Shown: one piece after another, positions 706 through 22,230 of the stretch
Layout of the letters: each line of letters starts with the position of its first letter
Position numbering within the stretch: position 1 is the first letter of the stretch
Program-made: the position numbers and the translations under genes
Notes under the pieces: generated by a model
Told to the model about the DNA's origin: nothing
Database searches by the model: none
Seen by the model: the letters and a program-made list of their open reading frames with translations, nothing else
Virus record (IMG/VR): IMGVR_UViG_3300036787_000095
Span: 1 to 22,230 of that record
Reading direction: 5' to 3' (one strand)
DNA: 22,230 bases
Source: a virus

Positions 706-708
706 CGC

Positions 709-2250: not shown

Positions 2251-2251
2251 A

Positions 2252-3031: not shown

Positions 3032-3032
3032 C

Positions 3033-5079: not shown

Positions 5080-5085
5080 GGGTTC

Positions 5086-5430: not shown

Positions 5431-5825
5431 TGTCAACTACTAGTGTGCAGTACCTGGCGCTTGATAATTTGTATGATCCCAGCTTCGATCCTGGAGCATC
5501 GCTCAGTAATGCTTATGCCGTGGAGCAGGCTTTGCGTACACGGTTGAATTTGTTTCAAGGCGAGTGGTGGGCGAATTTGAACATCGGACTACCGATGCTT
5601 CAAGTTATGCTGGGTAAGTCGGCCAGTGCCAAGGGACTGGCAGCCATGCAACTCGCCGTTCAGCAAGTTATCTTAGGCACTCCTTATGTCACGGCAATCA
5701 CAAGCCTGAACGTAGAGTTCTCTGACGTAACACTACAACTTAGCATTTCAGCTGTGGTCACAACAGCCTTCGGGCAGGCGACCGTGGCGACTCAGTTAGG
5801 CACGTTAGCATCCTTAGGAGGTTAG
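5430..5825 (+). CDS. Baseplate wedge protein, gpW/gp25-like
   Basis: I use GTG 5430, which overlaps the previous TAG and has GGGG about eight bases upstream. An upstream in-frame GTG at 5421 would add three residues. The 131-residue product has the gp25/gpW hallmark order: a helix ending in ALRTRLNLFQGEWWANLNIG, then LPMLQVMLG, a central helix, and two final strands (VEFSDVTLQLSISAVVTTAFG). This lysozyme-like fold is a conserved part of contractile baseplate wedges and initiates sheath assembly. It precedes baseplate J, as in P2, Mu and Pam3-like phages. Confidence 0.85.
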   Translation: MSTTSVQYLALDNLYDPSFDPGASLSNAYAVEQALRTRLNLFQGEWWANLNIGLPMLQVMLGKSASAKGLAAMQLAVQQVILGTPYVTAITSLNVEFSDVTLQLSISAVVTTAFGQATVATQLGTLASLGG

Positions 5826-5829
5826 GCTG

Positions 5830-7047: not shown

Positions 7048-7736
7048 GCAACCCAGGCTTCGGAGTAGGCGGATACGGCAGTGGTGAGTTTGGTAACGCC
7101 CCGTTAGAAACACTGCCCATAGGCTACTACATCGACCTTCTAACGCACGAGTACCGTACGCAATCGCCAAAACTCCAGGCTTTACTTCGTGTGCTATTGA
7201 AGAAGTTTGACGATGTCAGTCAGTGCCAGGTGCAGATAGACGTAGCATTTGATTTAGATTATGCTGTCGGAGTTCAGCTGGATACTCTTGGAATTATTCT
7301 TGGTACGTCACGCCAGCTACCATTTCAGCCTAGTAACAGTCTCAGTCCAATACTTCCTGATAACATCTTTCGCCAGTATCTGCAGGCGCGAGTGAGCTGG
7401 AACACGTGGAACGGTAAGATCGGCACTGTCCCCATCATCTGGAATGCTATGGGCTTTACCGGCACCTTAGTGTTGGCCGATGAGCAGAGCATGGCGGCAA
7501 ACATCACTTGCCCAGGGCTTACTAGTTCATTAATGCTGGATATGCTGTGTGGATTTCAAACTGGGTGGGTACCAGGTACGCCACAGCCTAGCGGGCTCAA
7601 TATGAACTATGGATTGATCATTCCTCGTCCGCAGGGCGTAGAGTACTTCTACAATGTGAGTAACCTGCCAGTATTCGGTTTTGATCACCAGGATGCATAC
7701 GTGGCCGGGTTCGACTCCGGCTTGTGGAGTAACTAG
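7044..7736 (+). CDS. DUF2612 / tail protein I-like baseplate protein
   Basis: The 230-residue product starts with a Gly-rich GFGVGGYGSGEFGN, then PIGYYIDLLTHEYRTQSPKL and a helical part, then LDYAVGVQLDTLGIILGTSR. A region NIFRQYLQARVSWNTWNGKI follows. This order is characteristic of DUF2612 proteins, the position-equivalents of P2 gpI, which connect baseplate J to the fibres. ATGA overlap with J and the AGGAGG-led fibre gene after it fit that role. No enzymatic motif is seen. Confidence 0.8.
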   Translation: MSNPGFGVGGYGSGEFGNAPLETLPIGYYIDLLTHEYRTQSPKLQALLRVLLKKFDDVSQCQVQIDVAFDLDYAVGVQLDTLGIILGTSRQLPFQPSNSLSPILPDNIFRQYLQARVSWNTWNGKIGTVPIIWNAMGFTGTLVLADEQSMAANITCPGLTSSLMLDMLCGFQTGWVPGTPQPSGLNMNYGLIIPRPQGVEYFYNVSNLPVFGFDHQDAYVAGFDSGLWSN

Positions 7737-7746
7737 GAGGTTGTAA

Positions 7747-8358
7747 ATGCCAGGAACGACTAATGCGTTGCAGTGGAACCCCACGCAGGCTAATCAAGAG
7801 AGCGATGCTACATACGCCGCAGATTCAGAGCGGACTGGCGGTGCGGTAAGCGGTCAGTTTCCATCAGCGACCGCCAATAAACTATTCTACCAATTGTCTA
7901 CGTACATCACGGCTCTTGCGACGATGCTGGCTAACAAAGGGTATTCTAACAATGACTCCAATTTAGCCAACCTCGTTGCCGCCATGAGTAATTTGGTGAC
8001 TAACGCGGATTTGTCGATACTGAGCCTAATCATCAGCCCTAATATGCACGTAGTAACTGGTACTAGGGGTTTCGGTGTAACGTATCAAAACACTGGCACC
8101 ATAGCCATGGATGTAGTAGTATCTGGGTTGCTTAATATTGGGAATGGTACTGGCAGTACTGTCACTATACAGGGGCGTGTTGGTAGTTCATATCCGTCTA
8201 GCATCGTAGCTACGGACAGTACCACAAATGGATCTGGCTACTGCGAAGTGCATTTCAAGGTGCCAGTCGGATACTACTACGGTGTTTATACCGGCGGAAT
8301 AGGACCTGGTGATTCAACTTCAGCAACATTGGCAAGTTGGGTGGAGTGGGGGAGCTAA
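7747..8358 (+). CDS. Fibre base / short tail fibre protein
   Basis: AGGAGG lies about seven bases before the ATG. The 203-residue product begins with a conserved fibre-base segment: W-NPTQANQESDATYAADSERT, followed by FPSATANKLFYQLSTYITAL. I recall this as common at the N-terminus of phage fibre proteins placed after gpI. Residues 95-203 form a compact beta domain (GFGVTYQNTGTIAMDVVVSG ... YCEVHFKVPVGYYYGVYTGG) resembling a receptor-binding or capping head. Unlike every large gene after it, it has no signal peptide, so it is the last conventional cytoplasmic virion protein of the operon. Confidence 0.75.
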   Translation: MPGTTNALQWNPTQANQESDATYAADSERTGGAVSGQFPSATANKLFYQLSTYITALATMLANKGYSNNDSNLANLVAAMSNLVTNADLSILSLIISPNMHVVTGTRGFGVTYQNTGTIAMDVVVSGLLNIGNGTGSTVTIQGRVGSSYPSSIVATDSTTNGSGYCEVHFKVPVGYYYGVYTGGIGPGDSTSATLASWVEWGS

Positions 8359-8359
8359 G

Positions 8360-10426
8360 ATGAAGAAAATTGGTATAACATCGGCGTTAATGATGATGGT
8401 CACTTCACTGCCACTTGTTGCGCAAGTCACACTGACACCTAATATCGGTCTGCAAGTTCCGTATTACCAACAAACTAACTGGCAGGTAACAATCCAGTAT
8501 GATTTGAACAGGCTTGACTTATTTCTGAGTGGCAACCTTCCACTACCAAATTTGACGGTGACTAACTTGCCTGGGTTGTTTGCAGGGTTGACGGGGTGCG
8601 GCATAATTGGTTACGTGTACAGCCCCGCCAGTAATACGTGCGTAGCTAATGGCACGGCACCATTCTCTTCTGTTACTGGCGGCACCAATACTGCGGCGGC
8701 GATGATCGTCGGTACTGGTTCTACACTTGGCACAACTGGTGCTGGGTCGATAGCGGCTACCAGTGCGGCCGCGTTGCTCAATACGCCGTCGCTTTGCTCA
8801 ACTGGGTATGCTCCTGTTGGAATATTATCAAATGGAAATGCCACTGGGTGTACTGCGCTGGTTGGGATCAGCCTTACTACGACCGGTACAAGTGGTGCTT
8901 CTACGCTGATTAGTGGTGTGCTCAATATCCCGCAATACGCAAATAATGGTCTTTCCGGTATGACGGCAGGTCAGCTGCCTGTAGCGTTAACGCCCACGAC
9001 AGTTGCCAACAGCATCCCCTATGCAACGGCGGCGACGGCATCAACCATCGTTGAACGCGACTCGTCCAATAATATCAATGCCGCAATGTTCAACGGCACG
9101 CCTATAAGCTGGTTTGGCATAGGCAATGCAAACATTGGTGGCAGCATGCCTTCCGCTGTTAACACGGGCAATACGGCGGTAGGGACCACCGCCCTCACGA
9201 ATGCTAACGGCGGAGCCAGTTATAACACAGCTGTAGGATACGAGGCACTCTCATCAACTAGCTCGGGTGAAGCAAATACCGGTCTAGGTTTTAATACGGT
9301 GACCTATGGATCTACCGATACCAACGAGACCATGATCGGCTACAATGCCGTCGGCAAAGGCTCCAACACTGTAACCTTGGGCAACAATTCGGTAACTGCC
9401 GTGTATATGGGCAACACACTGATAGGGCCAAACGCCAGCACCACTGGGACAGCGGCAAACCTCAGTGGTATGCCCACACTTCCTAACGGCACCATGGCGA
9501 CAACGCAGACGGCGGGAGACAACAGCACGAAGCTGGCGACGGACGCTTTTGTGCTGGCAAATGCTGGAAGCAGCGGCGGCGGGTGCCCTCTAACCGGCTG
9601 CACGTTTACCGGCGCACTCAACGGCACCAGCGCATCGTTCTCAGGCACCGTCGCGGCTGGCACTTCGACACCAACGACTATAGGACCGAACGGTGTTTTG
9701 TTAAATGGGGTTCCCGCTCTGCAGTCGCAGACATCGCTCAACAACTACTACTCCGGTGGAGCGGGAAACCTGACTGGCACCGGCTCCTTCAACACCGCGA
9801 ATGGGTTTGAGGCGCTCTCCGCCAACACCACCGGCAACAGCAACACCGCGAATGGGAGTCAGGCGCTCTACTACAACACCACCGGCAGTTACAACATTGC
9901 GAATGGGTATGGGGCGCTCTACTACAACACCACCGGCTCCGACAACACCGCGAATGGGAGTCGGGCGGGAATGTACATCGAGGATGGCGTAACCGCCAAT
10001 CAAACCAGCAGCAACTCAGTGTATGAGGGCTTTCAAGCCTATCCGCTTGCCTCTGGCGATACGAACGAAACGGTGATAGGCTATGCCGCAATTGGACACG
10101 GCAGCAACACGGTGACACTAGGCAATTCTTCAACAACTGCTCTTTATATGGGCAACACGCTGATCGGCGGCAGTGGCATGGGGACCACCAGCGGCACCGC
10201 GACCCTCGTCTCTGGCACGGTCACGGTGAGCTCGACAGCGGCCTGCGCTGTCAGCAGCAGTTGCCATTATTCTCTAACTCGCTATGCTACCAACTCTAGC
10301 GTGTCCATAGGAAATTTGAGCGTTGGAACGATCAGCGCGGGAAGCAGCTTTGTTATCAACTCCCTGACCGTGACGGCTACCATTGCGCTTACGGATGTGA
10401 GCAGCGTTTCTTGGCAAGTAAATTGA
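8360..10426 (+). CDS. Secreted tail-fibre-like protein with beta-roll repeats
   Basis: I place the start at ATG 8360, preceded by GGGGGAG and opening a clear signal peptide (MKKIGITSALMMM ... PLVA|Q). The 688-residue product has fibre motifs LTTTGTSGASTLISGVLNIP (about residue 172) and DNSTKLATDAFV (about 388). YadA-head-like repeats of the IGYNAVGKGSNTVTLGN type occur twice (about 268-356 and 546-602). A 17-residue tandem repeat, NTANGSQALYYNTTGSY, occupies 478-536. Cysteines come in close pairs (TGCGII...NTCV, GGGCPLTGC, AACAVSSSC). No S74 intramolecular chaperone domain is seen. A trimeric beta-structured fibre or adhesin is likely. Whether it joins the virion or is exported is open. Confidence 0.78.
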   Translation: MKKIGITSALMMMVTSLPLVAQVTLTPNIGLQVPYYQQTNWQVTIQYDLNRLDLFLSGNLPLPNLTVTNLPGLFAGLTGCGIIGYVYSPASNTCVANGTAPFSSVTGGTNTAAAMIVGTGSTLGTTGAGSIAATSAAALLNTPSLCSTGYAPVGILSNGNATGCTALVGISLTTTGTSGASTLISGVLNIPQYANNGLSGMTAGQLPVALTPTTVANSIPYATAATASTIVERDSSNNINAAMFNGTPISWFGIGNANIGGSMPSAVNTGNTAVGTTALTNANGGASYNTAVGYEALSSTSSGEANTGLGFNTVTYGSTDTNETMIGYNAVGKGSNTVTLGNNSVTAVYMGNTLIGPNASTTGTAANLSGMPTLPNGTMATTQTAGDNSTKLATDAFVLANAGSSGGGCPLTGCTFTGALNGTSASFSGTVAAGTSTPTTIGPNGVLLNGVPALQSQTSLNNYYSGGAGNLTGTGSFNTANGFEALSANTTGNSNTANGSQALYYNTTGSYNIANGYGALYYNTTGSDNTANGSRAGMYIEDGVTANQTSSNSVYEGFQAYPLASGDTNETVIGYAAIGHGSNTVTLGNSSTTALYMGNTLIGGSGMGTTSGTATLVSGTVTVSSTAACAVSSSCHYSLTRYATNSSVSIGNLSVGTISAGSSFVINSLTVTATIALTDVSSVSWQVN
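9791..9970 (+). repeat. 51-bp tandem repeat, three and a half copies
   Basis: Units begin at 9791, 9842, 9893 and 9944 (the last partial). Each full unit encodes 17 residues with the pattern N-T/I-A-N-G-x-x-A-L-x-x-N-T-T-G-x-x. Units keep the reading frame and differ mainly at the x positions, so the array is a protein-coding beta-roll repeat and a likely site of copy-number change. Confidence 0.9.
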
Positions 10427-10594
10427 GGGCGGCAGGGACAATTTGCACAGGAGCGACTTCAACGGCATGGCAGCATGGCACGTATACAAACTTGGCGATT
10501 TGGATCTGCACAATATTCTTCACTCGCAGCAAGCGCCACAAGAGTGCGCTGTTTCCAACACCTCAGATGCTGAAAGCAACCTTGGAGATACGCT
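10427..10594. other. Gap between fibre genes holding a stray 3' gene fragment
   Basis: This stretch opens with one copy of a 36-bp repeat and then shows no convincing gene. An open frame through it from 10411 (93 codons) starts inside the fibre gene's stop region without a credible ribosome site and has no recognisable domain. After about 10500 the bases become AT-richer. GGAG at 10584-10587 belongs to the next gene. No terminator hairpin with a T-run is visible. Confidence 0.6.
10433..10468 (+). repeat. 36-bp direct repeat, copy 1
   Basis: Identical over all 36 bases to 21401-21436. Begins CAGGGACAATTTGC and ends ACTTCAACGGCAT. Here it lies in the gap six bases after the fibre gene's stop and is not part of a recognisable gene. 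Confidence 0.97.
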
Positions 10595-11872
10595 ATGGCA
10601 GATACCACTATAAACAAGATACACCAAATTCACAATTACTGGGTAAGCAAAATAAAATTGTCAGTGCTGATGTCAGGAGTTGGTGTGAATAGAATACTGG
10701 TAGTAGGCGTGCTTGTACTTAGCGGCGTCGTTAATGCATCTGCACAATTTACGACAAGATTTCAAACCCAGACTCAGACCGACCCAGCTTACCAGATTAA
10801 CTGGGCAAAGGTAGCAGGAATCGGCGCTCCTACTATGTACTGTCCAACACTCATTACTGGTGAGGTGACTGTTGGTTCAACGGCAGTCACGCTTTCAAAC
10901 ATGACTGGGGTAGTAGTAAATCAAGCTGTATTTGGTACTGGGATTCCAGCTGGCACTACAGTGAAGGGCGTTGACGCACCGATGCAAACCGTGCTACTAA
11001 GCCAGCAAGCTACAGTAGGCGGCGCTGCTACACCGCTCAGCTTTTACAGTTACGGCATGCCGTACGTCGACACAGTCGGCAACGTAACGTACACTTGCAG
11101 TGGTGCTGGATGGCTACAAGGCGGTGGAGGCGGTGGAGGCGGCATTCCATATCCAACTGGTACTGGTATTCCGCAGGTTAATGGCGGTGTTGGGTGGGGG
11201 ACGTCTTATAATGCTGCCAATCAAATACCAGCAAGTTATCTGAATTTAAGCGCTTACGTTACTTCAATCACAGCAGCGGCTACATATCAACCACTACTTG
11301 GATACACCCCGTACAACTCTACTAATCCGACAGGGTACATCACCAGCAGTTCGCTCTCTCCATATGCACTTACCTCCGGGCTGGGCACGGGAGCATACGC
11401 TACCATAGCCAATTATCCGCTGACCTCTTCACTGGGAACAGGGGCTTACGCCACGATTGCAAACTATCTGACCACTGCAAGCGCGGCCAGTACATATCAA
11501 CCATTGCTAGGATACACCCCGTACAACTCTACTAATCCGGCTGGGTATGTTACAGCGTCAGTATTGGCGTCATACTTACAAAGTGCGACTGCTGCAGCGC
11601 TTTATGCTCCCATTTTTGCCGTCACTACTAATGGCACTAGCGGCCCAGCGACATATGCAGCTAATGTGCTCAACATTCCGCAGTATGGGTCTGGCGGAAT
11701 AGACGGTGTTCCATTTTGTACTGGATTCACTCCCGTAACTGGCCAGACGGTGGTATATACCACTGGAGGAACACCAAATCCATGCTGGTCTGCTGCTGGC
11801 GGAATTAACCTCTACGTAAACGGGACTCTGGTGGCAAGCGGTCTTACGGGGGTGACTGTAAATGGGTACTAA
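10595..11872 (+). CDS. Secreted tail-fibre-like protein with TYQPLLGYTPYN repeats
   Basis: ATG 10595 has GGAG at 10584-10587 and gives 425 residues, but places the signal peptide after a 25-30 residue extension. GTG 10685, with AGGAG at 10675-10679, would begin directly at VNRILVVGVLVLSGVVNASA and give 395 residues; either may be used. Motifs include an eight-glycine hinge (about residue 176), TYQPLLGYTPYNSTNPTGYI at about 230 with a near copy at 300, the duplicated LGTGAYATIANY between them, and GPATYAANVLNIPQYG near 350. These are fibre-shaft motifs. A cysteine pair (FCTGF ... PNPCW) lies near the C-terminus. The sequence ends abruptly at GVTVNGY where the next gene overlaps it, so the tip may be truncated. 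Confidence 0.75.
   Translation: MADTTINKIHQIHNYWVSKIKLSVLMSGVGVNRILVVGVLVLSGVVNASAQFTTRFQTQTQTDPAYQINWAKVAGIGAPTMYCPTLITGEVTVGSTAVTLSNMTGVVVNQAVFGTGIPAGTTVKGVDAPMQTVLLSQQATVGGAATPLSFYSYGMPYVDTVGNVTYTCSGAGWLQGGGGGGGGIPYPTGTGIPQVNGGVGWGTSYNAANQIPASYLNLSAYVTSITAAATYQPLLGYTPYNSTNPTGYITSSSLSPYALTSGLGTGAYATIANYPLTSSLGTGAYATIANYLTTASAASTYQPLLGYTPYNSTNPAGYVTASVLASYLQSATAAALYAPIFAVTTNGTSGPATYAANVLNIPQYGSGGIDGVPFCTGFTPVTGQTVVYTTGGTPNPCWSAAGGINLYVNGTLVASGLTGVTVNGY
11483..11513 (+). repeat. 31-bp inter-genic fibre repeat, copy 1
   Basis: Identical over 31 bases to 15230-15260 in another fibre gene. It encodes the start of the second TYQPLLG motif. A related copy 210 bases upstream (from 11282) is similar but imperfect. 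Confidence 0.93.
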
Positions 11873-13970
11873 GATGAGACTGATTTTCCTTTCGACGCTG
11901 GTCCTGCTGCTAATCGGAGCGGCTTGCGGACAGAGTGTCCCCGGAAACGCGAACTTGGTCAATACCCCGACTTCTGGTGCGCCGGGTCCCATGCCGCTAA
12001 CGGGTGCTTCTATCGTTCAATGGGGGCATGACGATACTGTTGTGCCGCGCAACATCTGGGGATGGACGACAGGCGGAGGGAATGCAACCCCCTACAACTC
12101 TGGCTATGGAATCTGCAACGGCCTGACACCCGGCGCGTCAACCGTGAGTACAGCCATCACACCGGGCATAGTGATGTTCGGTTCATCGAATTACTGGCAC
12201 ACGGATGTAAGTTCAGCCACGATTGACCCGAACAGCGCGACAATTCTCGCATACATAGTCAATACGACGCCAGGCGGATACTACCATCCAGGTACGTTGA
12301 CCGTCTCTAATGTCCAGATTACATCTGGTGTAATGACCGTACTCGGAACCGCAGGAAACTTTAGCCCAACAGTGGGACGTACCGTGATATTTGCCGGAAC
12401 CGGATTGTCTTGGCTCGACGGTGCGACAGTAACTGTAACTTCCGTGCTCGGCAATGGTCCAGCGGACCCAAACGGGTCCACGACAAATGGAATTACGACC
12501 ACAGTTCCTTCTGGAGCTCCGTCTTCTTATGGGCCGACTGCGACCTCTGGCACAGCGACCACGACAGACACTGCTCCGGCGCTCGGCCCTAACTTCGGCA
12601 CGGCGCAAGGAATTCCCTTCACCATTGACGACTCGACTAACATTCCTTTGACCTATGCGCAAGACACGTATGGTATGTTCCAACCACTCAGCACAGATGC
12701 AGACAATGTGGCGGCTCCAATCCCGTCCTATCTCCCCATTGAGGGTTTGATTCCTGACTGCTACGATCCCACGGGAAACACACCGGGCCAACCTTACGAG
12801 GACGCTCACGCCATCATTCTCGACAAGAACACTTGCTGGGAATACGACTACTATCAGGCTGTACGCTGCCACGGTGCATGGTCTACGGGCGGTGAAACCG
12901 TGTGGGATTTGACAAACTATAACCAGCGTCCTGTGGGATGGAGTTCAGTGGATGCGGCTGGACTTCCTGTTCTCCCTGGCCTGCTGCAACACGTCGAAGT
13001 AGCCAATGGAACCGTCAATCACGCCATCCGTGCGACAGTGAAAATCTCTCATGATGCGTATGTTTATCCGGCAACACACTGGGCTGGAATTGACCACACC
13101 TCAGGCTACAACTCGCCTATTCCGCTTGGGATGAGACTTCGACTGAAGCCGTCCTGTTCTTCGACTCTGACGACCAACTGTTTCAATATGACCGGATTCT
13201 CGATACAGAATCAGGTTATTCTTCGTGCGCTCCAGACTTACGGCCTTATCATTGCCGACAATGGTTCAAACCTATTTATAACAGGAACCGTAGACCAAGG
13301 GTGGAACGACAACGATCTAGGCAGTTTGCACAAAGTTACGGCAGGTGATTTTGACATCATTACGATGCCGCCTGCGTACACCGTGCTCAACCCCGGCTAC
13401 CGCATGACCATCAGCGGATGCACATCGGCGACATTCCTGAACGGCAACACCTACACCGCTGCGATGACTGGACGCGGCTGGTCGCAGGAAACAGCGGCGA
13501 TCACGCACGCTGATTATCCAACTACGACGGACAACTGCACCGTAAACTTTGCGTTCCCAGTTGGCAGCGTCTACACCCTTCCCGGCGCATGGACTGCGAC
13601 CACAGCGACGGTGAATGTCACAAGTAACGTGCTCACGCTGGTCTGGACCGTGAGCGATGCTGGAAGCAACCTTCCAAAGGGAGCCATACCGGTTATCAGT
13701 AGCTTCACTGCAACGCCTACGCACACGGCGGCAAACGGGAGCGTGACGCTGGCTTGGACTTATACCAATGGCACTTACGCCTACTTGACTCAATGCGACA
13801 CGGGATGCCCTTACACCGGCTCGGCTAACCCCCAAGTAGGCGTGATTCGTGGGGCCAGCGGAAGCATAACGGTGACTCCAGCGATCACGACAACCTACAC
13901 GCTGAACGTGCTGAACAATCTGAGTCAGTATGGGTACGTATCACAATCGGTCACGGTACCGGTTCCGTAG
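11862..13970 (+). CDS. Large secreted protein with a conserved bacterial domain of unknown function
   Basis: ATG 11862 has GGGGGTGA six bases upstream and overlaps the previous stop. ATG 11874 is a second option. Either gives a signal peptide (MRLIFLSTLVLLLIGAACGQ) in a protein of 702 or 698 residues. Residues about 110-500 match a family I recall from secreted proteins of many soil bacteria: NYWHTDVSSATIDPNS, then GIPFTID, AIILDKNTCWEYDYY, RPVGWSSVDAAGLPVLPG, DAYVYPATHWA, and QVILRALQTYGLIIADNGSN. Its activity is unknown to me. Residues about 620-702 form an Ig-like domain (SFTATPTHTAANGSVTLAWT ... TTTYTLNV). Codon style is richer in GC than in the tail genes, suggesting acquisition from a bacterial chromosome. 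Confidence 0.75.
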   Translation: MGTKMRLIFLSTLVLLLIGAACGQSVPGNANLVNTPTSGAPGPMPLTGASIVQWGHDDTVVPRNIWGWTTGGGNATPYNSGYGICNGLTPGASTVSTAITPGIVMFGSSNYWHTDVSSATIDPNSATILAYIVNTTPGGYYHPGTLTVSNVQITSGVMTVLGTAGNFSPTVGRTVIFAGTGLSWLDGATVTVTSVLGNGPADPNGSTTNGITTTVPSGAPSSYGPTATSGTATTTDTAPALGPNFGTAQGIPFTIDDSTNIPLTYAQDTYGMFQPLSTDADNVAAPIPSYLPIEGLIPDCYDPTGNTPGQPYEDAHAIILDKNTCWEYDYYQAVRCHGAWSTGGETVWDLTNYNQRPVGWSSVDAAGLPVLPGLLQHVEVANGTVNHAIRATVKISHDAYVYPATHWAGIDHTSGYNSPIPLGMRLRLKPSCSSTLTTNCFNMTGFSIQNQVILRALQTYGLIIADNGSNLFITGTVDQGWNDNDLGSLHKVTAGDFDIITMPPAYTVLNPGYRMTISGCTSATFLNGNTYTAAMTGRGWSQETAAITHADYPTTTDNCTVNFAFPVGSVYTLPGAWTATTATVNVTSNVLTLVWTVSDAGSNLPKGAIPVISSFTATPTHTAANGSVTLAWTYTNGTYAYLTQCDTGCPYTGSANPQVGVIRGASGSITVTPAITTTYTLNVLNNLSQYGYVSQSVTVPVP

Positions 13971-13978
13971 GAGAGTCT

Positions 13979-16138
13979 ATGTTAAGGAAACTCGCAATCC
14001 TTTTTGTTCTGGCACCGTGGGCGGCGCTTGCGCAGAGTAACGTGAACTTTGGTGCTCTCCCTGCGGCCCCCAGCGGTTATCAGAACTGCGTGTGGCAGCA
14101 GTCTGGCGCTGGAACCAGCAACGTTCAACAATCCTGTTACGTTCCCATTTCAACAGTCACGGCTCTGATTTATAGCGCCGGAGCACCAACCGCCACTTGC
14201 AGCAGCGTAGTGAACCTGAATGTGTACGGGATAAACACCAGCACAACTCCATGGTCCGAGTATATTTGCTCGACAGGACTCAGCGGTTACACGTGGTATC
14301 AGATTGGCGGTGGCGGAACAGGCACAGTAACGCACACGGGAAACCTTACGGCTCTCAAGTTGATGCTTGGAAATGGCACTGCCGATAGTACGGTCGATAC
14401 AGTCGCCTCAAGCGATGGCGCGGGGAATCTTACAGTCGCATCACTCACCGTCTCCGGATCTGCGCATGGGATCACCATTCCCGCTGGAACCGCAGTCTCG
14501 GGCGCGGCGGGAAGTGCGATATACGCTTCCGACTCGACGAATGGATACGCGGAGGTGAATGAAAACAATACCGGCCTCTCACGTGTCTGCACGGCTGCGA
14601 ATGGGATATGCGCTGGCGGAAGCCTCACATTAACTACCACGGGCTCAAGCGGCGCGGCCACCTATAGCAGCGGAACACTGAACATCCCGATCTACTCAGG
14701 AGGCGGTACCCCTGGCGGCAGCAGCACTCAATTCCAATACAATAATAGCGGCGCGTTCGGTGGCGTTCCCATGACGTACAACGGAACATTGATTGCCGAG
14801 ACGGTGCCTTTCCAGATTGGGTCAGCGATTAGTAAAACACTGCTTGAGACTTTCGCCTACACCATTGCCGCAGGGACATATCAGCTTCCAGCGGCTAGCA
14901 GTTGGAGCGGGTATCAGGCTCAGGTGAGTGACGGCCTAACACAGTGCGACGCCACGACAGGCGGCGGAACTATTGCTCACGTCGTGGTTTCTAACGGAAC
15001 GGCCTGGGTGTCGGCATCGCCTCTTTGCTCTGCCTTCCCAACCACATACACGGTGGGTGCCTACACTATGACGCAGCCAGCAGCGACGGGGACGTTGGCG
15101 CTGACCAGCCAAATAGGCACCTGGGGCGCTCTGAATTATCCAACGTGGGTATCTGGCATCCCGTTCGTCAAGATGACAGCAGCAGGTACGTTCTCGCTGG
15201 ATACGAATACCTACCTAACTACGGCGACAGCGGCCAGTACATATCAACCATTGCTAGGATTCACGCCATACAATGCTACGAATCCCAACGGGTACATCTC
15301 TTCAAGCGCATTGTCTCCGTACCTGCTCAGCGCCACGGCAGCTAGCACTTATGAGCCAGTTCTGGGGAATCCGGGCACAACCGGCTATGTACTCTCCTCT
15401 ACAACGGCTGGCCTGCGCAGTTGGATTGCGAATATGGTCTATCCCGGCGCTGGCATTGTAGTTTCTACCGGCTCAGCTTGGGACACGTCACTCGGCACGT
15501 ATGGGAGTGGGAGTGTCCTGCTCGGTAGCGGCGCGGTAGGTTCAGCGGCGTATCAGAACAGTAGCTATTTTCAGCTCGCACTCACCAACCCAGTCACCGG
15601 CCCCGGCAGCGGCGCGACGGTGGGCCACATGGCTGTGATGGGCAACACGAGTGGAACGTCGATCACAGACGGCGGCGCGGTGCCTACACTGAGCAGTCTG
15701 GGCGCGGCAGCATCAAATGCGTCAACCACTGTTAACGGGCAAACCTGCACTCTCGGTTCGACATGCACAATTACAGCCGGGGCATCGCCAACCAGCCTCG
15801 GTGCGATAACCTACAACGCCGCTGGCACTACAACCTTTGCGGCTGCATCTGGCGCGTGGGTGTTTGGCACGGTATCGCCAACCGCATCTACCGCGACCTC
15901 ACTGGCCTTCACCGGGCTTGTAGCGGGTGGAACGTACAAGATGTTCATTCACGGCGCGGCGACGGCAGGAACGATCACCTGGACGGGAAGCGCCAGCGGC
16001 TCTTGCACAAATATCATTGTTACCGGCAATGGGTCAGGGGTGTTCTCCACAGGCGGTTTGACTAATGAGCACGATACGCTCTACATCGATTTCGATGGAA
16101 CAACCTGCGCACTTACACTGATGCCGAGCGCGACATAG
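13979..16138 (+). CDS. Secreted tail-fibre-like protein (719 aa)
   Basis: GGAG overlaps the previous stop, with an eight-base gap before ATG. The signal peptide (MLRKLAILFVLAPWAALA|Q) is clear. Fibre motifs are LTTTGSSGAATYSSGTLNIP (about residue 217), GGSSTQFQYNNSGAFGG (about 246), and TYQPLLGFTPYNATNPNGYI (about 420). A C-terminal AVPTLSSLGAAASNAS block is followed by a small beta head. Cysteines pair at short distance (CVWQQSGAGTSNVQQSC, VCTAANGIC, TCTLGSTC, GSC...TTC). The C-terminal 100 residues (TYKMFIHGAATAGTITWTGS) look like a receptor-binding tip. As in the two other fibre-like proteins, virion-type shaft motifs sit behind an export signal. Confidence 0.78.
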   Translation: MLRKLAILFVLAPWAALAQSNVNFGALPAAPSGYQNCVWQQSGAGTSNVQQSCYVPISTVTALIYSAGAPTATCSSVVNLNVYGINTSTTPWSEYICSTGLSGYTWYQIGGGGTGTVTHTGNLTALKLMLGNGTADSTVDTVASSDGAGNLTVASLTVSGSAHGITIPAGTAVSGAAGSAIYASDSTNGYAEVNENNTGLSRVCTAANGICAGGSLTLTTTGSSGAATYSSGTLNIPIYSGGGTPGGSSTQFQYNNSGAFGGVPMTYNGTLIAETVPFQIGSAISKTLLETFAYTIAAGTYQLPAASSWSGYQAQVSDGLTQCDATTGGGTIAHVVVSNGTAWVSASPLCSAFPTTYTVGAYTMTQPAATGTLALTSQIGTWGALNYPTWVSGIPFVKMTAAGTFSLDTNTYLTTATAASTYQPLLGFTPYNATNPNGYISSSALSPYLLSATAASTYEPVLGNPGTTGYVLSSTTAGLRSWIANMVYPGAGIVVSTGSAWDTSLGTYGSGSVLLGSGAVGSAAYQNSSYFQLALTNPVTGPGSGATVGHMAVMGNTSGTSITDGGAVPTLSSLGAAASNASTTVNGQTCTLGSTCTITAGASPTSLGAITYNAAGTTTFAAASGAWVFGTVSPTASTATSLAFTGLVAGGTYKMFIHGAATAGTITWTGSASGSCTNIIVTGNGSGVFSTGGLTNEHDTLYIDFDGTTCALTLMPSAT
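15230..15260 (+). repeat. 31-bp inter-genic fibre repeat, copy 2
   Basis: Second copy of the sequence at 11483-11513, in the same reading phase relative to TYQPLLG. Flanks diverge at once on both sides at DNA level although the protein motif continues. Confidence 0.93.
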
Positions 16139-16146
16139 GAGATGAG

Positions 16147-18387
16147 ATGAGAAGAATTCTGATAGCATTATGCTTGCTCCTGTTAGTTGCCTGTGCGTAT
16201 GCTCAGGGACCGGGTGGTTCGTTCACCAACGATTTCTTCTATGAAGGCTTTGGCGATTCAGGAACCCAGAACTGTGGTTACGGGTCGCCGTGGAATATTG
16301 GCCTTTACGCTGCCGTTGGTTGTAATTATCCGTGGGTCATAACCGCAAATGTTGGAACTGATAATTCAGTCAGTATTGGTCCCAGCCCCGGCAGCAAGCA
16401 ATATCCACAAGGCCCATCGTCTCTAAGTATCAATACCGGAACCGCGTCTGGAGATCTGGTTACGGTGTCTAATTTTTCAACGCCGACAGTTCCAGCTTCC
16501 GCAACCACGAGTGTTACACTCTCACTGAATGTGGCATCAAGCAATCTGGCAACGAGTAACGGAGTTAGTATTTATGGGCTATGTAATTCCTTATCCAACT
16601 CTTGTTCTGGAGGGGCATATCACTCGTGCTGGATAAAGTTGCAAGGATACGGAGGAAATATATACCTCCTCGGAGAAGGTAGCACAGCATCGACGCAAAC
16701 AGCCAACATAACCTACGGTGCGGATAACATTGTAGTGCTCACATGCGTGCCTGGAGGCACATCGTCTATCAGTCTGAACGGCGCAACGCCACTTACGTTC
16801 ACAGGTAGCAATTATCCGTGGTCGTTTCAGCAGTTCGGCTCGTTCTATTCGAATAACACCTATGGGGCGGCGTACAGCATTGGAAGTGTGAAAGTTAATG
16901 TATCACAACCTAGTCCAGGTGCTGGACCAGATGTCTACGTGAATTTTTCTGCGGGTCCAAGCGCCGGAGTTCTCACGTCTACGAATCTTCCCAGCCAGGT
17001 CATCGGCGGCAATGGAGCATGGAGTTCAACGAACTGCACTGGTACGGCCACCTGGATGACATATGCCACAGGTGCGCACACTAACCTTTACTCCCCGGTG
17101 GATGCTTTAAGCTCTATGTATAGTGGAGCAGAATCCACCCTCGGATATAACTTTCTTCTCTCAGGAGGAACAAGCCCCTATTGTAAATACCAATGGGTCA
17201 CAGCTTCACCTGTGCTTTCAACAGGAGAGTGGGTGATGACCACGCTTCCCACTAGCGATAGCATTTCTTATGTCTCGATGGACCCTATGTACAACAATGG
17301 GGATTTCACCTCTTTTATGACTCACGGCGGTCATATGTATCTGGAGACTGAAAACAACCCAAATGGGTATCCAGTATCAGGAAGTTATTACTCCTTTAGC
17401 CCCTCCACCTGGTATTATCGTTCGTTGCAGATTCAAGCTAAATACTTAGGTTTTGCGGCGGGAGCCGATCTGTTGCTTGAAGGAGCGGTCTCTAGCGGAA
17501 CATTTCAGGCCGGTGAAACGGTCACTCAGACTACATCAGGGGCCACCGCGACGATAACCGGAGCACTCCCCACTGCTATCGGCGGTAGCCCTTCGGCTCA
17601 AGGGATGGAGTTCATAGCGGTATCGGGCACCGCGGATGCTACAGGTTCATGGTCTGGCAACACGAGCGGAGCAATATTCACGCCAAGCTATCGGATACCA
17701 GGAGCGGTTACTAGTGGGACCCTATCCACCACAAGTGAGACTCTTACGCAGACCGGGACAGGTGCCACCGCAACGCTCGTCGGCAATGGCTCCGCGTTTA
17801 ACCTCCCTTACGGGATAGGTGTAGCGGGTAGCTTCGCTATTAAAATACTCAATCTAAGCGGCTCTCCCAACTTCTACAGAACATGGACGGGAGGGACCAG
17901 CGGAGCTGTATATACCCCTACAGTACAAATCGTGACATCGTACAGCGAGACCACTTCGGCGACAACTCTCACGGTTTCTGGCACCAACTATTTCATTGCA
18001 GGAACCCCAGTGCTGTTCAGTTTCTCAGTAGGACCAACCTACCTGAATGCCGGTGGCCCCTATTTGGTAACATCTCAAAATTCCACCACTTTCACGGTTG
18101 CTTATGCGGGATCGGCCAACTCTGGATCGGCTACGGGAACAGCGGGTGTATTGCCTTTATCTCGTCTTCCTAGTACGTTCGACACCCTGCGTATCTATGA
18201 CGCGAGCTGCAATCTCGTCTCGACGCAAAAGAAACTCGCCTATGGTAGCTCAGCCACTCCTACAGTTTCTGGCTATGCTGGCTTGGGTCGCGGAGGGGAT
18301 ACGAACGCAAGCGGAATAACGACCTCGTGGAACGTCAGCAGCTTGTTTATGGATTACTCAAGGGGAAGACCGATCCCTTGCCACTAA
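16147..18387 (+). CDS. Secreted multidomain protein with LamG-like modules
   Basis: AGGAG at 16137-16141 precedes ATG 16147, eight bases after the previous stop. The 746-residue product begins MRRILIALCLLLLVACAYAQ. This allows signal peptidase I cleavage after AYA, or a lipobox reading (LVAC) with lipid anchoring. Residues about 25-250 (FFYEGFGDSGTQNC ... GSVKVNVSQP) and 260-440 (VYVNFSAGP ... STWYYRSLQIQAKY) look like two concanavalin/LamG-type beta-sandwiches, often carbohydrate-binding. Two related repeats follow: SGTFQAGETVTQTTSGATAT ... GSWSGNTSGAIFTP and SGTLSTTSETLTQTGTGATA ... RTWTGGTSGAVYTP (about 450-600). A phage-fibre-like Ig module comes next (to about 665). No catalytic site was recognised. 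Confidence 0.65.
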   Translation: MRRILIALCLLLLVACAYAQGPGGSFTNDFFYEGFGDSGTQNCGYGSPWNIGLYAAVGCNYPWVITANVGTDNSVSIGPSPGSKQYPQGPSSLSINTGTASGDLVTVSNFSTPTVPASATTSVTLSLNVASSNLATSNGVSIYGLCNSLSNSCSGGAYHSCWIKLQGYGGNIYLLGEGSTASTQTANITYGADNIVVLTCVPGGTSSISLNGATPLTFTGSNYPWSFQQFGSFYSNNTYGAAYSIGSVKVNVSQPSPGAGPDVYVNFSAGPSAGVLTSTNLPSQVIGGNGAWSSTNCTGTATWMTYATGAHTNLYSPVDALSSMYSGAESTLGYNFLLSGGTSPYCKYQWVTASPVLSTGEWVMTTLPTSDSISYVSMDPMYNNGDFTSFMTHGGHMYLETENNPNGYPVSGSYYSFSPSTWYYRSLQIQAKYLGFAAGADLLLEGAVSSGTFQAGETVTQTTSGATATITGALPTAIGGSPSAQGMEFIAVSGTADATGSWSGNTSGAIFTPSYRIPGAVTSGTLSTTSETLTQTGTGATATLVGNGSAFNLPYGIGVAGSFAIKILNLSGSPNFYRTWTGGTSGAVYTPTVQIVTSYSETTSATTLTVSGTNYFIAGTPVLFSFSVGPTYLNAGGPYLVTSQNSTTFTVAYAGSANSGSATGTAGVLPLSRLPSTFDTLRIYDASCNLVSTQKKLAYGSSATPTVSGYAGLGRGGDTNASGITTSWNVSSLFMDYSRGRPIPCH

Positions 18388-18395
18388 GGAGCATC

Positions 18396-19487
18396 ATGGC
18401 AGACAAACTGGAGATTTCATCTGCTTGGAAGGAACAGCCTCGACAACTTACATGGCGATTGGAGCGGGATATGGCGTATTCACAAATCATTAAAAAGATG
18501 CTGATTGCGGCACTGTTCACGGCGGCTTGTATCACAGCACAAGCGCAGGGAATCTTCATCTACTCGTCGTATATGTCTATTCCACAGGCTTCCACGCCCA
18601 CGTTCTCCCCAGTGGCTGGAAGTTACAGCGGCACGCAGACAGTGACCATCTCAGCCTCCACAGGTGGTGTAATCTGCTACAACACGACAGGCTCACCAGC
18701 TACCAACGGCACGACCGGATGCACGACCGGCACGCTCTACACCGGTACTGTATCTGTGGCATCGACTGAAACGCTCTACGCCGTGGCGGGCGGAACAGGT
18801 TATATGAACTCAGCTGTGGGCAGCGCAGCGTACACCATCAGCGGCGGCGGTCACAGTTTTGCGCTTGTCCACTCGCCAACATTGTGCGGCACGGCATCTA
18901 ATTTTGTTAATCCCATTACCTGCACCATCCCCTCAACCGTGGCAGGAAATTCTGTTCTCATTTTTTATTCTTTTAACTTTAGCGCGGCACTCCCCACTTC
19001 CTACTCTCCCGCCGCGACTTGTGTTCCTACGCCAGGCAATGGCAGCGCCGCCGCGTTCACGGGATTATGTATTATTTCTAACGTATCAGGAGGTGTGACA
19101 TCTGTTTCAATTATTCCCTCTAATAACTACACCGAATCTTCGGTCATGGCGGTAGAAGTGTCGGGCCTCGTCACGTCTTCGCCTGTAGATACCTCCGTGG
19201 GTGTGACTGCGCCCCTGTCCAACTACGCCGGCGCTTCCTCAACTGGCTCAGTCACTCCTTCAAACGCGAACGATGTGATAATTGGCTATGCTGGAGAGGC
19301 GGGAACCGGTTTAGTTTCGGTCGGTTCTGGCTTCACAGTTATTGGGGAATCGTCTGTGTATTCTGCCGCCCTTATCTGGGCGGAGTATGAAGTAGTTTCG
19401 TCCACAGGTACATATCCGGGATCGATCAATCAGAGTGTGAATTTCAGCATTTTCAACAGCGGGACAGTAGCATTGAAGTTGCAGTGA
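18396..19487 (+). CDS. Secreted beta-sandwich protein with chitobiase-C-like domain
   Basis: ATG 18396 carries AAGGAG and repeats the eight-base stop-to-start spacing of the two genes before it, giving 363 residues. ATG 18471 (GGAG at 18461-18464) would instead start at MAYSQIIKKMLIAALFTAAC and give a normal signal peptide ending AQA|QG and 338 residues. After the signal, TPTFSPVAGSYSGTQTVTIS ... STETLYAVAGGTGYMNSAVG is a chitobiase/beta-hexosaminidase C-terminal-like module (CHB_HEX_C_1 or Fn3-associated). A second beta domain follows (FALVHSPTLCGTASNFVNPI ... VMAVEVSGLV). These modules bind or space; no enzyme motif is seen. Which start is used is undecided. Confidence 0.68.
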   Translation: MADKLEISSAWKEQPRQLTWRLERDMAYSQIIKKMLIAALFTAACITAQAQGIFIYSSYMSIPQASTPTFSPVAGSYSGTQTVTISASTGGVICYNTTGSPATNGTTGCTTGTLYTGTVSVASTETLYAVAGGTGYMNSAVGSAAYTISGGGHSFALVHSPTLCGTASNFVNPITCTIPSTVAGNSVLIFYSFNFSAALPTSYSPAATCVPTPGNGSAAAFTGLCIISNVSGGVTSVSIIPSNNYTESSVMAVEVSGLVTSSPVDTSVGVTAPLSNYAGASSTGSVTPSNANDVIIGYAGEAGTGLVSVGSGFTVIGESSVYSAALIWAEYEVVSSTGTYPGSINQSVNFSIFNSGTVALKLQ

Positions 19488-19521
19488 GGTTCTTCAGCGC
19501 GGGATGTAGCAGGGAGCAAAC

Positions 19522-21480
19522 ATGAAGAGGATTCTAGCGGCGATCATTATTCTGGCGGCATCAGTGGCTCCTGCATGGGCATCCACCTGGTATATCTCAA
19601 CCACCGGCAGCGACACTAATCCCGGCACATCTTCAGGTGCAGCCTTTGCTACGTTCGCGCACGCGCTAGCGGCGATGTCGGGCTGCGACACATTGATTGT
19701 GGAGAACGGTTACTATTATGACCATATTCACACCCTCTCTAATCTAACCGGTAATGTTGGAAGCTCCGGGTGCTACACCACCATCGAGGCAGCAACACCC
19801 TTTGGTGTGACGATAGATGCAAGCCACACGACTCCAGTGCCGGAAGAAACGATAGGAATTTTCTATAACTATATTAAGTTTATTGGCATTGAAGCAGCGG
19901 GGTTTCCCACTGACACCACAGGCAATATGTCTTATGTCTGGCTAGTCAATTCCGCCAACCACGTCAAGCTCCAGCAGACGGCAGGGTTCAATGCTCCATG
20001 CGGACTTACTAACAATGGGGCGTGGAATAACGACGTGTATACCATAGGTCCGGGTAGCAGCTACACACTAGTGGAGGACTCTCACGCCTGGGGATGTGGA
20101 CGATACAAATTCATGGCCTACCAGTCCGACCACGTTATTTTCCGCCGTGACGTGGCGCGACATGATTTCGCAGCAATGTCAGACAGCCCACTCACCCCTA
20201 TGTCTCAGTGTGGCGATTTTGTAAACTACGATGGCCAGGATGACATTTTTCAAAATGATGTCGGAGTTGACTCCGGCATGGTCAGCGGAGAGACGGGCAA
20301 CATGTATGGCTGTTTCTGGAGTGAACACAATGATCCAGGAATAGATAACTCCATCATCTTTGAGGGAAGTATATGCGATAACGTTCAAGGCGCGAACACA
20401 TGGTACGACCCAAAGCAATCCGGTACTCACACCTTCATCAATGACGCGGCCGTAAATGACTTAGGTGGGATGAATATGGGTCCGGCACTGGAACCGACCG
20501 CCACAGTAACGAGCGTCACGCTTGGAACGTCTTACGCGACTATCACAGTCAGTGTGCCAATCGCCACCTATACCGGGAATATCGGCGCGTTCTCTGGTTT
20601 GACGGGAAGCGCAGCGGTTCTGAACGGCGGCTTTTATTCTGTGCTGACAGGTAACCTCTCCTCTTCAACATTCACAGTTAATTACTCCACTGTCTCTCCA
20701 GGTGGCCCTTACACCACAGGCGGCACATTCACTTATACAGATGGCATTACACTGCCTACGACCAGCATAACGCACATGACCGTTGCGAACATCAATGGTA
20801 ATGGAGGGGTTGAGCCTGTAGATGGAGATACATCAGACGGCGTCGGTGTGGTAAATGTCATTCCGTTCACTTGGTTTCAGAGTCAAACGGTTACCAACAA
20901 CATCTTAGAGGGCATAACTTCCAACATAGGTCACTCGTCGGCAATCGCTGATTATGTGACTTCCAACTATAACTACTACTACGAAAACCTGGCCAACTTC
21001 GGGCAGACCGATTACCTGAGCACTATGCCTACAGCGGGAGCCAATGACGTGCAGGGAGTCAACCCACAAATCAAATACATCACGCGAGAAGAAGTAGGTT
21101 CTCCGGTATATGGCACGGCCTCGGACGGGGGGAACATCGGCGCTACGATCCTCTATGAGATTGGAACCACTGGAACGCTTTGGGGCGATACGGGCTACGA
21201 CACTATAACTTCGACATCATTGTGGCCCTTTCCGAATGAGGCGGTCATCAAGAGCGACATGGCAACGTTCAGCATGGTGAACCCCATAACCAGTAATACC
21301 ATCAGCGGAACGCGGGGGTTTGCTGCGTCAGGGACAGGATTGTATGGCGGTCCCATCACGCTGACGAGCTACATCTGGGAGTCGCTGGGGAACGCTTGCC
21401 CAGGGACAATTTGCACAGGAGCGACTTCAACGGCATCTTCAGCGTTCGGCGTGAAGTTTGGCGCTGGAAAGTTTCAGTAA
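19522..21480 (+). CDS. Secreted parallel beta-helix protein, tailspike or lyase-like
   Basis: GGGAGC precedes the ATG. The 652-residue product has a signal peptide (MKRILAAIIILAASVAPAWA|S). Directly after it is the pectate-lyase-superfamily opening TWYISTTGSDTNPGTSSGAA followed by FATFAHALAAM. Short beta-helix turns follow (YIKFIGIEAAGF, HVIFRRDVARHDF, DDIFQNDVGVDSG, NSIIFEGSICDNV) up to residue about 310. A small Ig-like insert lies near 325-415. Further helix turns follow, then a C-terminal SLWPFPNEAVIKSDM ... GFAASGTGLYGGP block that I recall from secreted bacterial beta-helix proteins. It could cut or bind surface polysaccharide. Catalytic residues could not be assigned. The 36-bp repeat encodes GTICTGATST near its end. 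Confidence 0.72.
   Translation: MKRILAAIIILAASVAPAWASTWYISTTGSDTNPGTSSGAAFATFAHALAAMSGCDTLIVENGYYYDHIHTLSNLTGNVGSSGCYTTIEAATPFGVTIDASHTTPVPEETIGIFYNYIKFIGIEAAGFPTDTTGNMSYVWLVNSANHVKLQQTAGFNAPCGLTNNGAWNNDVYTIGPGSSYTLVEDSHAWGCGRYKFMAYQSDHVIFRRDVARHDFAAMSDSPLTPMSQCGDFVNYDGQDDIFQNDVGVDSGMVSGETGNMYGCFWSEHNDPGIDNSIIFEGSICDNVQGANTWYDPKQSGTHTFINDAAVNDLGGMNMGPALEPTATVTSVTLGTSYATITVSVPIATYTGNIGAFSGLTGSAAVLNGGFYSVLTGNLSSSTFTVNYSTVSPGGPYTTGGTFTYTDGITLPTTSITHMTVANINGNGGVEPVDGDTSDGVGVVNVIPFTWFQSQTVTNNILEGITSNIGHSSAIADYVTSNYNYYYENLANFGQTDYLSTMPTAGANDVQGVNPQIKYITREEVGSPVYGTASDGGNIGATILYEIGTTGTLWGDTGYDTITSTSLWPFPNEAVIKSDMATFSMVNPITSNTISGTRGFAASGTGLYGGPITLTSYIWESLGNACPGTICTGATSTASSAFGVKFGAGKFQ
21401..21436 (+). 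repeat. 36-bp direct repeat, copy 2
   Basis: Identical to 10433-10468. Here it is coding: it specifies PGTICTGATSTA, 15-27 residues before the end of the beta-helix protein. Flanking bases differ on both sides. Confidence 0.97.
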
Positions 21481-21541
21481 GCCTGAAAGGGCAATCAGAG
21501 TACGAGGCCAGATGCTAGGGCCAGAAGAGGGGATACAGCGG

Positions 21542-21829
21542 ATGGCCATTTCACCTGCAGAGCGTACAGGTAGACTGGAGGAGCGTGTGGACAAGCTAGA
21601 AGAGGGAGTATCAAACTTCCGTGCGTTCCAAGTAGAGGCGCGCGAATTCTTTACCGAAAGCAAGACGCGGGCAAAAGCAGAGATGGAGTTCCACAACCTG
21701 CGCGACCAGCAAATAAAAGACGCGCTCGGTTCTGCCAACCTCAGCATCCGTCGCTGGATGATGGGCATAGCGGCGCTGGCTTGCTTGGCCTCAATTGTCG
21801 ATATCATCATCCACTACCACGTATTGTGA
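21542..21829 (+). CDS. Coiled-coil protein with C-terminal membrane anchor, possible holin accessory
   Basis: I start at ATG 21542, nine bases after GAGGGG (21527-21532). Earlier in-frame ATGs at 21458 and 21512 have poor sites, and the first overlaps the beta-helix gene. The 95-residue product has a charged N-terminal coiled coil (GRLEERVDKLEEGVSNFRAF), a second helix (KAEMEFHNLRDQQIKDAL), then one membrane span near the end (MMGIAALACLASIVDIII) and a short tail. This layout resembles XhlA-type holin-associated proteins that help release endolysin. It also fits any tail-anchored phage membrane protein. No endolysin is visible next to it. Confidence 0.6.
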   Translation: MAISPAERTGRLEERVDKLEEGVSNFRAFQVEAREFFTESKTRAKAEMEFHNLRDQQIKDALGSANLSIRRWMMGIAALACLASIVDIIIHYHVL

Positions 21830-21917: not shown

Positions 21918-22097
21918 ATGAGCAAAACCCCTAAACTGGTCGAAGTCAAGGTGAGGGTAAAGCCTCTGTTAAAACAGCAACTCTACAACCTTGCAAAGAG
22001 GCAGAAATGGTCTATGAACAAGTCTGTCGAGAACGCAATCGAGTGCGCTGTGATGTGTGAATTTGAGCGCACAGCGAAGGAGAAAACCAACCCATGA
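21918..22097 (+). CDS. Small ribbon-helix-helix DNA-binding protein
   Basis: This 59-residue protein is too short for many gene callers. It reads MSKTPKLVEVKVRVKPLLKQ, then a helix (QLYNLAKRQK), a turn (WSMNKS) and a second helix (VENAIECAVMCEFER). Strand-helix-helix order, size and the alternating strand VEVKVRVK fit the Arc/MetJ superfamily, dimeric repressors that contact DNA through the paired strand. There is no ribosome site before the ATG, and a strong promoter ends seven bases upstream, so the message would be leaderless. Its stop overlaps the next start (ATGA), implying co-transcription with a secreted protein. The DNA target is unknown; self-regulation at the promoter would be typical. 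Confidence 0.72.
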   Translation: MSKTPKLVEVKVRVKPLLKQQLYNLAKRQKWSMNKSVENAIECAVMCEFERTAKEKTNP

Positions 22098-22230
22098 AGC
22101 GCATCGCATTATTCACTTTCATCCTGCTGACGGCGGCGGGACTCTACGCGCAGGTACCCAAAATAAGTACACGGCCCGGATGTGCAAACTACCGCGACGG
22201 CGAAAAGCATCTGCTCAATGTTCCTGCTTG
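22094..22230 (+). CDS. Secreted protein, N-terminal part only
   Basis: The gene overlaps the stop of the ribbon-helix-helix gene and has AAGGAG at 22077-22082, eleven bases upstream. It continues past the window end. The 45 visible residues open with a signal peptide (MKRIALFTFILLTAAGLYAQ), then VPKISTRPGCANYRDGEKHL. The mature part is too short to identify. It continues the run of exported proteins and has the same AQ cleavage style. Confidence 0.65.
   Translation, partial: MKRIALFTFILLTAAGLYAQVPKISTRPGCANYRDGEKHLLNVPA

Follow-up and report, generated by a model that had tools for sequence, protein, structure and literature searches.

A run of genes for predicted Sec-exported, cysteine-rich appendage-like proteins downstream of the baseplate module in soil myovirus contigs

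The 22,230-bp linear virus sequence of IMG/VR record IMGVR_UViG_3300036787_000095 (hereafter the window) carries, downstream of a contractile-tail and baseplate module, seven consecutive genes (8360-21480) whose products each begin with a Sec-type signal peptide (SP). The accepted view is that tail fibres fold and assemble in the cytoplasm, and the products of this run do not conform to the description of a fibre as a protein assembled there and lacking an export signal. Sequence comparisons make it highly probable that the run proteins are exported and oxidised, and dozens of soil virus contigs from the same myovirus clade show the arrangement as well. Here we set out this evidence, refine the gene models, and weigh whether such proteins might join virions after lysis or act apart from them.

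Signal peptides were evaluated with a coarse scorer of our own, on its own scale, that combines n-region charge, a 9-residue hydrophobic core and the residues at -3 and -1, with a threshold of 5. The claim in the original prediction that seven genes in a row carry export signals held throughout, all being Sec signal peptides of the n/h/c type; five of its start positions were kept and two were corrected, gene 2 starting best at GTG 10685 (AGGAG upstream) rather than ATG 10595, and gene 6 at ATG 18471, within the open reading frame (ORF) at 18327. With these starts all seven genes score 5.1-10.1 and show the Sec/signal peptidase I pattern of charged n-region, hydrophobic core and AxA-like site; the 11 upstream genes do not exceed 3.3 at annotated starts or 3.9 at internal ones (7/7 versus 0/11, Fisher p=3e-5). 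The run comprises:

8360..10426, + strand: predicted exported fibre 1, 688 aa; SP MKKIGITSALMMMVTSLPLVA^Q, score 5.1; 8 mature Cys
10685..11872, + strand: predicted exported fibre 2, 395 aa; SP MNRILVVGVLVLSGVVNASA^Q, score 9.3; 4 mature Cys
11862..13970, + strand: predicted exported protein 3, 702 aa; SP MGTKMRLIFLSTLVLLLIGAACG^Q, score 7.1; 10 mature Cys
13979..16138, + strand: predicted exported fibre 4, 719 aa; SP MLRKLAILFVLAPWAALA^Q, score 8.4; 12 mature Cys
16147..18387, + strand: predicted exported protein 5, 746 aa; SP MRRILIALCLLLLVACAYAQ, score 10.1; 10 mature Cys
18471..19487, + strand: predicted exported protein 6, 338 aa; SP MAYSQIIKKMLIAALFTAACITAQA^Q, score 7.4; 6 mature Cys
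19522..21480, + strand: predicted exported protein 7, 652 aa; SP MKRILAAIIILAASVAPAWAS, score 9.8; 9 mature Cys

The cysteines of these proteins and their relatives offer a second line of evidence. Were all cysteines paired after export, the mature protein would hold an even number of them, irrespective of any in the removed signal. In a set of 57 complete SP proteins from all lineages, the clade members dereplicated at 70% identity, the count was even in 52 of the 56 mature forms with at least two cysteines (binomial p=5.5e-12, a value made somewhat optimistic by modules shared between proteins), versus 29/57 precursors. Where the SP itself holds an odd number (n=27), two precursors were even and 25 mature forms were. 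Random deletions of the same length gave even counts in 52% of cases and in at most 66% over 200 trials; among controls, even counts occurred in 7/14 SP-less fibres and 109/171 baseplate proteins. Cysteine content is 1.87% in SP proteins versus 0.81% in cytoplasmic neighbours, and an AxA-type cleavage motif is followed by Q in 21/41. Because parity is restored only without the SP, cleavage of the signals is almost certain, as is pairing of the mature cysteines in an oxidising compartment. The claim of export is thus supported both by this test and by SPs in many independent relatives. A candidate SP-less isoform arising by dual translation was rejected, an internal start preceded by a ribosome-binding site occurring in 1/41 only.

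Relatives were gathered by a baseplate-J alignment search of IMG/VR, 80 clade loci being taken from 341 confirmed. In contigs of sufficient length the usual order is baseplate J, DUF2612, an SP-less fibre, an optional SP-less protein of ~130 aa, and then one or several SP genes; some contigs, L049 and L052 among them, are too short to reach the array zone, and one locus (L054) differs from the others and has no SP array. Across the 80 loci, SPs were scored in 36/55 non-redundant genes of at least 250 aa downstream of the baseplate genes versus 18/331 baseplate genes (p=1.5e-23), the latter rate of ~5% reflecting in part true SP genes inserted there. The 19 genes below threshold are for the most part canonical fibres or lie outside the array; two of them (in L067 and L102) have evident SPs that just miss it. 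Genes with SPs also occur inside the baseplate module, upstream of baseplate J (L070-L074, L096-L100 and L103), among them a gene encoding 880 aa and one related to window gene 6.

The same gene order was sought in other phages and found not only in the clade contigs but also in podovirus-like contigs (L005-L009 hold the same kind of SP-gene run) and in the cultured Tunturi phages described below. Homologues lacking SPs in most relatives, which would have spoken against export, were not what emerged: in the clade, long fibres have retained the SP. Modules from window genes 4 and 6 are found again in SP proteins of myovirus-like and podovirus-like contigs and of Tunturi 2, a sharing across lineages from which the repertoire appears to behave as a common pool of host-interaction modules. 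The suggested link to Acidobacteriota gains indirect support from the cultured Tunturi phages, which share the arrangement, while for the window itself such a host can only be inferred; two genome-contig scans, one by baseplate J alignment and one with protein 6, gave no confirmed relative.

The fibre-shaft motifs that had been noted in the genes then placed at 8360, 10595 and 13979 were confirmed by repeats and a K1-lyase_C match; fibre-shaft repeats or spike domains are present in genes 1, 2 and 4, proteins 3, 5, 6 and 7 not being among them. In fibre 1 the SP is followed by a TPNIGLQVP..NWQV..YDLNRLD domain (hereafter the TPN domain), GNTAxG repeats and a K1-lyase_C-like C-terminus (PF24146, 29.7 bits, cut-off 27); the protein also matches phrog_6002, a virion structural protein, at 2.3e-9, and a single-protein scan for loci related to gene 1 found none.

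8423..8557, + strand: TPN domain at the mature N-terminus of fibre 1; from alignment and a profile search over all loci
9778..9967, + strand: three 51-nt repeats encoding GNTAxG-type fibre-shaft motifs, in gene 1

Fibre 2 consists of its SP, a 'QINW..G.GAP..CP...YG.PY.D....Y.C..GW' domain that aligns with SP-bearing homologues in four loci (L038, L079, L086 and L116), and YTPYN repeats; a cysteine pair is invariant in this family, and an 84-nt 'TYQPLLGYTPYN' repeat is common to genes 2 and 4. Modules of fibre 4 recur in SP fibres of podovirus-like contigs (L005-L008) and of myovirus contigs L092 and L115; direct homologues of gene 4, and of a fibre of L007, were absent from the phage collection. 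Residues 314-502 of protein 3 share 38-40% identity with hypothetical proteins of Streptomyces/Kitasatospora plasmids (tblastn E 7e-34) and matched no Pfam, PHROG or NCBIfam family above cut-off. Protein 6 contains a CHB_HEX_C_1 domain (PF13290, 25.3 bits, cut-off 22) and modules homologous to Tunturi 2 gp17 and to L097/L098/L100. Neither protein 5 nor protein 7 matched a family in Pfam or PHROGs. The signal of gene 5, LLLLVACAYAQ, fits a lipobox (LVAC) as well as a signal peptidase I site, so that protein 5 could possibly be a lipoprotein; Tunturi 2 gp79 (MNTKILLLSLLLTGC) looks alike.

The TPN domain takes two forms across the loci: a stand-alone, SP-less protein of ~130 aa (about 20 distinct sequences), and the N-terminal domain of long fibres, behind their SP (about 10). 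No confident exception was met in 48 unique domain matches, which include some spurious secondary ones; the domain lacks an SP only when it stands alone. In alignments, the predicted mature start of the SP-bearing form and the start of the SP-less form coincide to within a few positions. By the reasoning applied to gene fusions, a domain found either alone or joined, behind an SP, to a long fibre suggests that the exported fibres work with a protein of the baseplate operon, and this two-form pattern favours later attachment of the exported fibres to virions. An AlphaFold model of the stand-alone protein is good only for residues 60-131; its best Protein Data Bank (PDB) matches, none below E 1e-3, were phage neck and tailspike proteins (the T5 portal complex and CBA120 TSP4), with weak similarity to the N-terminal domains of TSP4 at E 3e-3. 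A PDB sequence search with the domain returned no meaningful match.

Immediately 5' of the run, and omitted from the original prediction, lies a further fibre gene:

7747..8358, + strand: canonical SP-less tail fibre, short form, 203 aa; N-terminal domain homologous to AB434P2, Magia and EKP1 fibres

A profile built from the N-termini of 12 clade members of this family retrieved the tail fibres of Agathobaculum phage AB434P2 (8.5e-17) and Burkholderia phage Magia (4.1e-10) and matched Elizabethkingia phage EKP1 (3.3e-6); a PDB sequence search with the protein gave no meaningful match. The fibres of Magia, EKP1, AB434P2, Mulock, LZ35 and PP101 likewise follow Baseplate_J and DUF2612, and the window's short fibre is homologous to some of the canonical fibres of this baseplate type. 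Unlike the run genes, 20/21 canonical control fibre genes, a small and non-random sample, lack an SP, the exception being that of BgManors32.

Among cultured phages, only one match to the TPN domain emerged from a tblastn search of the phage collection, a weak one (E 0.04) in Tunturi 5, a jumbo myophage that infects the acidobacterium Tunturiibacter (PMC11924767). Six consecutive genes of that phage (gp337-gp342) have SPs, and two of them have TPN-type mature N-termini, which supports the weak match. Tunturi 2 encodes SPs in gp12, gp13, gp14, gp16 and gp17, gp15 scoring low, and Tunturi 1 has genes near-identical to these. Synonymous to non-synonymous differences between the two phages number 13:0 (gp12), 12:2, 57:9 (gp14) and 132:36 (gp17), ratios indicative of purifying selection with gp17 the most variable. 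Like the window, Tunturi 1, 2 and 5 contain runs of SP-bearing, Cys-rich genes, annotated as tail fibre, tail spike, pectin lyase or virion structural protein (PMC11924767); unlike it, these phages are podoviruses and a jumbo myovirus, outside the present clade. The terms 'signal peptide' and 'mass spectrometry' do not occur in the text of the paper on the isolates (PMC11924767). In the stretches read, the fibre and tail genes of Tunturi 3 (a podovirus) and Tunturi 4 (a siphovirus) are SP-less. Tunturi 2 and Tunturi 3, both podoviruses on host strain X5P2, thereby form a natural control, with fibre SPs present in the one and absent from the other.

A simpler form of the arrangement is found in Burkholderia phages. 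Bcep1 gp51, Bcep43 gp48, Bcep781 gp49 (Naesvirus), BcepNY3 gp51 and the BgManors32 tail protein are SP-bearing fibre genes, single in Bcep1, Bcep781 and BgManors32; the Bcep43 gene, joined from two pieces, does not lend itself to simple SP scoring. As with the window, cysteine counts in Bcep1 and Bcep781 are even in the mature form (4 and 14) and odd in the precursor (5 and 15), that of mature BgManors32 being odd (7), and Bcep1 encodes a second, SP-less fibre. These phages differ from the window in having one SP gene rather than a run, and in lacking the TPN domain. Tailspike clusters of the CBA120 type, with TSP4 as hub, are generally known to group several appendage genes as the window does; cytoplasmic assembly is assumed for CBA120 spikes, unlike the export proposed here.

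We favour an interpretation in which the seven genes form an array, expressed late, whose products are Sec precursors of phage appendages: tail fibres, spikes and depolymerase-like proteins. The exported proteins would fold oxidatively in the periplasm, where they would be kept apart from the cytoplasm-assembled virions and would meet them only at lysis, some of them then docking on the baseplate by means of the TPN domain; export would offer a virus assembled in the reducing cytoplasm a route to appendages that are hardened by disulfides and bind polysaccharide. We judge docking after lysis the most likely step, at roughly even chances; that there exists a class of tailed phages completing their virions outside the cytoplasm, through Sec export, periplasmic disulfides and docking on lysis-released particles whose infectivity matures in the periplasmic or extracellular mixture, we advance tentatively, as a little short of an even prospect. 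In favour of docking are the TPN domain, the fibre motifs and the apparent lack of any other fibre in Tunturi 2, in which no SP-less fibre candidate was seen; the operon-like spacing of several of these genes (1, -11, 8 and 8 bases) also counts for the array. An argument by elimination, that the exported proteins must be the receptor-binding proteins since there are no others, was dropped for the window on account of the canonical fibre at 7747-8358, and is kept, weakly, for Tunturi 2.

Several observations weigh against this interpretation. The presence of these proteins in virions is a prediction from their sequences. Since an SP-less fibre is present as well in both the window and Bcep1, infectivity need not depend on the exported ones, and the SP-less fibres of Tunturi 3 show that the host strain it shares with Tunturi 2 does not require export. 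Within the window the TPN domain occurs in gene 1 and not in the other six, the N-terminal part of the model of the stand-alone TPN protein is of low confidence (pLDDT 45-54), and gene 3 resembles bacterial proteins rather than phage fibres.

The foremost alternative is that the proteins are exported and never become part of the virion, being instead secreted or surface-bound enzymes or adhesins made late in infection that might cut host extracellular polysaccharide, block receptors on the dying cell or its debris, or help progeny spread. Export supports this equally well, as do a GDSL esterase in Tunturi 5 gp342, a pectate-lyase-like match in Tunturi 2 gp14 (just under the Pfam cut-off), the chitobiase C-terminal domain of window gene 6, the bacterial homologues of gene 3, and the canonical fibres of the window and Bcep1. 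Fibre-shaft repeats, K1-lyase_C and the TPN domain, on the other hand, are features of virion appendages; seven or eight genes per phage seem more than a secreted enzyme would need; and Tunturi 2 would be left without an evident fibre. We regard this alternative as quite possible, if on the doubtful side. That the genes are ordinary lysogenic-conversion or host genes, near a tail operon by chance, draws on the bacterial homologues of gene 3 and on a gene 6 domain common in cellular proteins, but is very improbable: the genes occupy a constant position across dozens of contigs and cultured phages, share modules between myovirus-like and podovirus-like contigs, and are under strong purifying selection between Tunturi 1 and 2, and two genome-contig scans with single queries detected no such run in host chromosomes away from phage genes. 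The related suggestion of host adhesins built from phage parts is likewise unlikely, as the genes lie within structural operons, both in phage contigs and in cultured phages that form plaques. Finally, the hydrophobic N-termini, which alone cannot discriminate, might be a virion feature such as an anchor buried in the baseplate, a reading hardly credible given the AxA-type motifs followed by Q, a TPN domain that also occurs segment-free at the same relative position, segments that vary in sequence with their character kept (window versus L003), and cysteine counts that are even only after removal, a test by which it is largely refuted.

The original prediction knew of no described system of this kind. 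The openly licensed literature, searched in full text, indeed held no description of exported fibre runs, an account in a subscription journal remaining possible; a rumen phage paper that mentions 'signal peptides' does so in a general remark only. Notes in GenBank on Bcep1, Bcep43 and Bcep781 ('possible tail fiber; possible signal peptide domain') do, however, predate it, and no published interpretation of Bcep1-type SP fibres was found in the papers accessible to us. Phage appendage proteins, and single SP-bearing fibres as annotated in the Bcep1 group, are thus already known; export followed by docking, if true, would be a categorically new assembly route for phage appendages and would revise the site and timing at which tailed virions gain their host-recognition parts; proteins that stay apart from virions would instead represent a large secreted arsenal used late in infection. 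Either way the proposal accounts for the SPs and paired cysteines in many 'tail fibre' genes of soil phages, cautions against taking such metagenome genes for host secreted proteins, and is directly testable in the cultured Tunturi phages, with Tunturi 3 as the same-host control.

Matches to Pfam and PHROGs domains confirmed the baseplate module reported upstream of the run:

59..7736, + strand: contractile-tail and baseplate module; no SPs, all SP scores <4
start 59, + strand: tail assembly chaperone (TAC_15)
start 709, + strand: tape measure with glucosaminidase domain
start 2252, + strand: Dit-like
start 2865, + strand: plug, Pam3_gp18-like
start 3350, + strand: hub
start 4429, + strand: spike (xxxxx_N)
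start 5421, + strand: wedge, gp25-like
start 5830, + strand: Baseplate_J
start 7044, + strand: DUF2612

From the canonical fibre onward, successive gaps of 1, 258, -11, 8, 8, 83 and 34 bases are typical of one operon, except after gene 1. An exact 36-nt repeat occurs in the window at two sites 11 kb apart (10433-10468 and 21401-21436), the first in the 258-base gap between genes 1 and 2 and the second in the C-terminal coding sequence of gene 7, as though recombination had duplicated the 3' end of a fibre gene or stranded it in the gap. Beyond the run lie:

21458..21829, + strand: small protein; a single predicted membrane segment; gene overlaps the 3' end of gene 7
22094..22230, + strand: eighth SP-bearing gene, cut by the contig end; starts MKRIALFTFILLTAAGLYAQ...; SP MKRIALFTFILLTAAGLYA^Q

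The first of these resembles, in position and size, genes that precede the endolysin in Tunturi phages, and by that analogy likely belongs to the lysis region. Just 5' of the eighth SP gene, a small ORF at 21919-22098 (~59 aa, MSKTPKLVEVKVRVKPLLKQQL...) looks, from its sequence, like a ribbon-helix-helix type DNA-binding protein.

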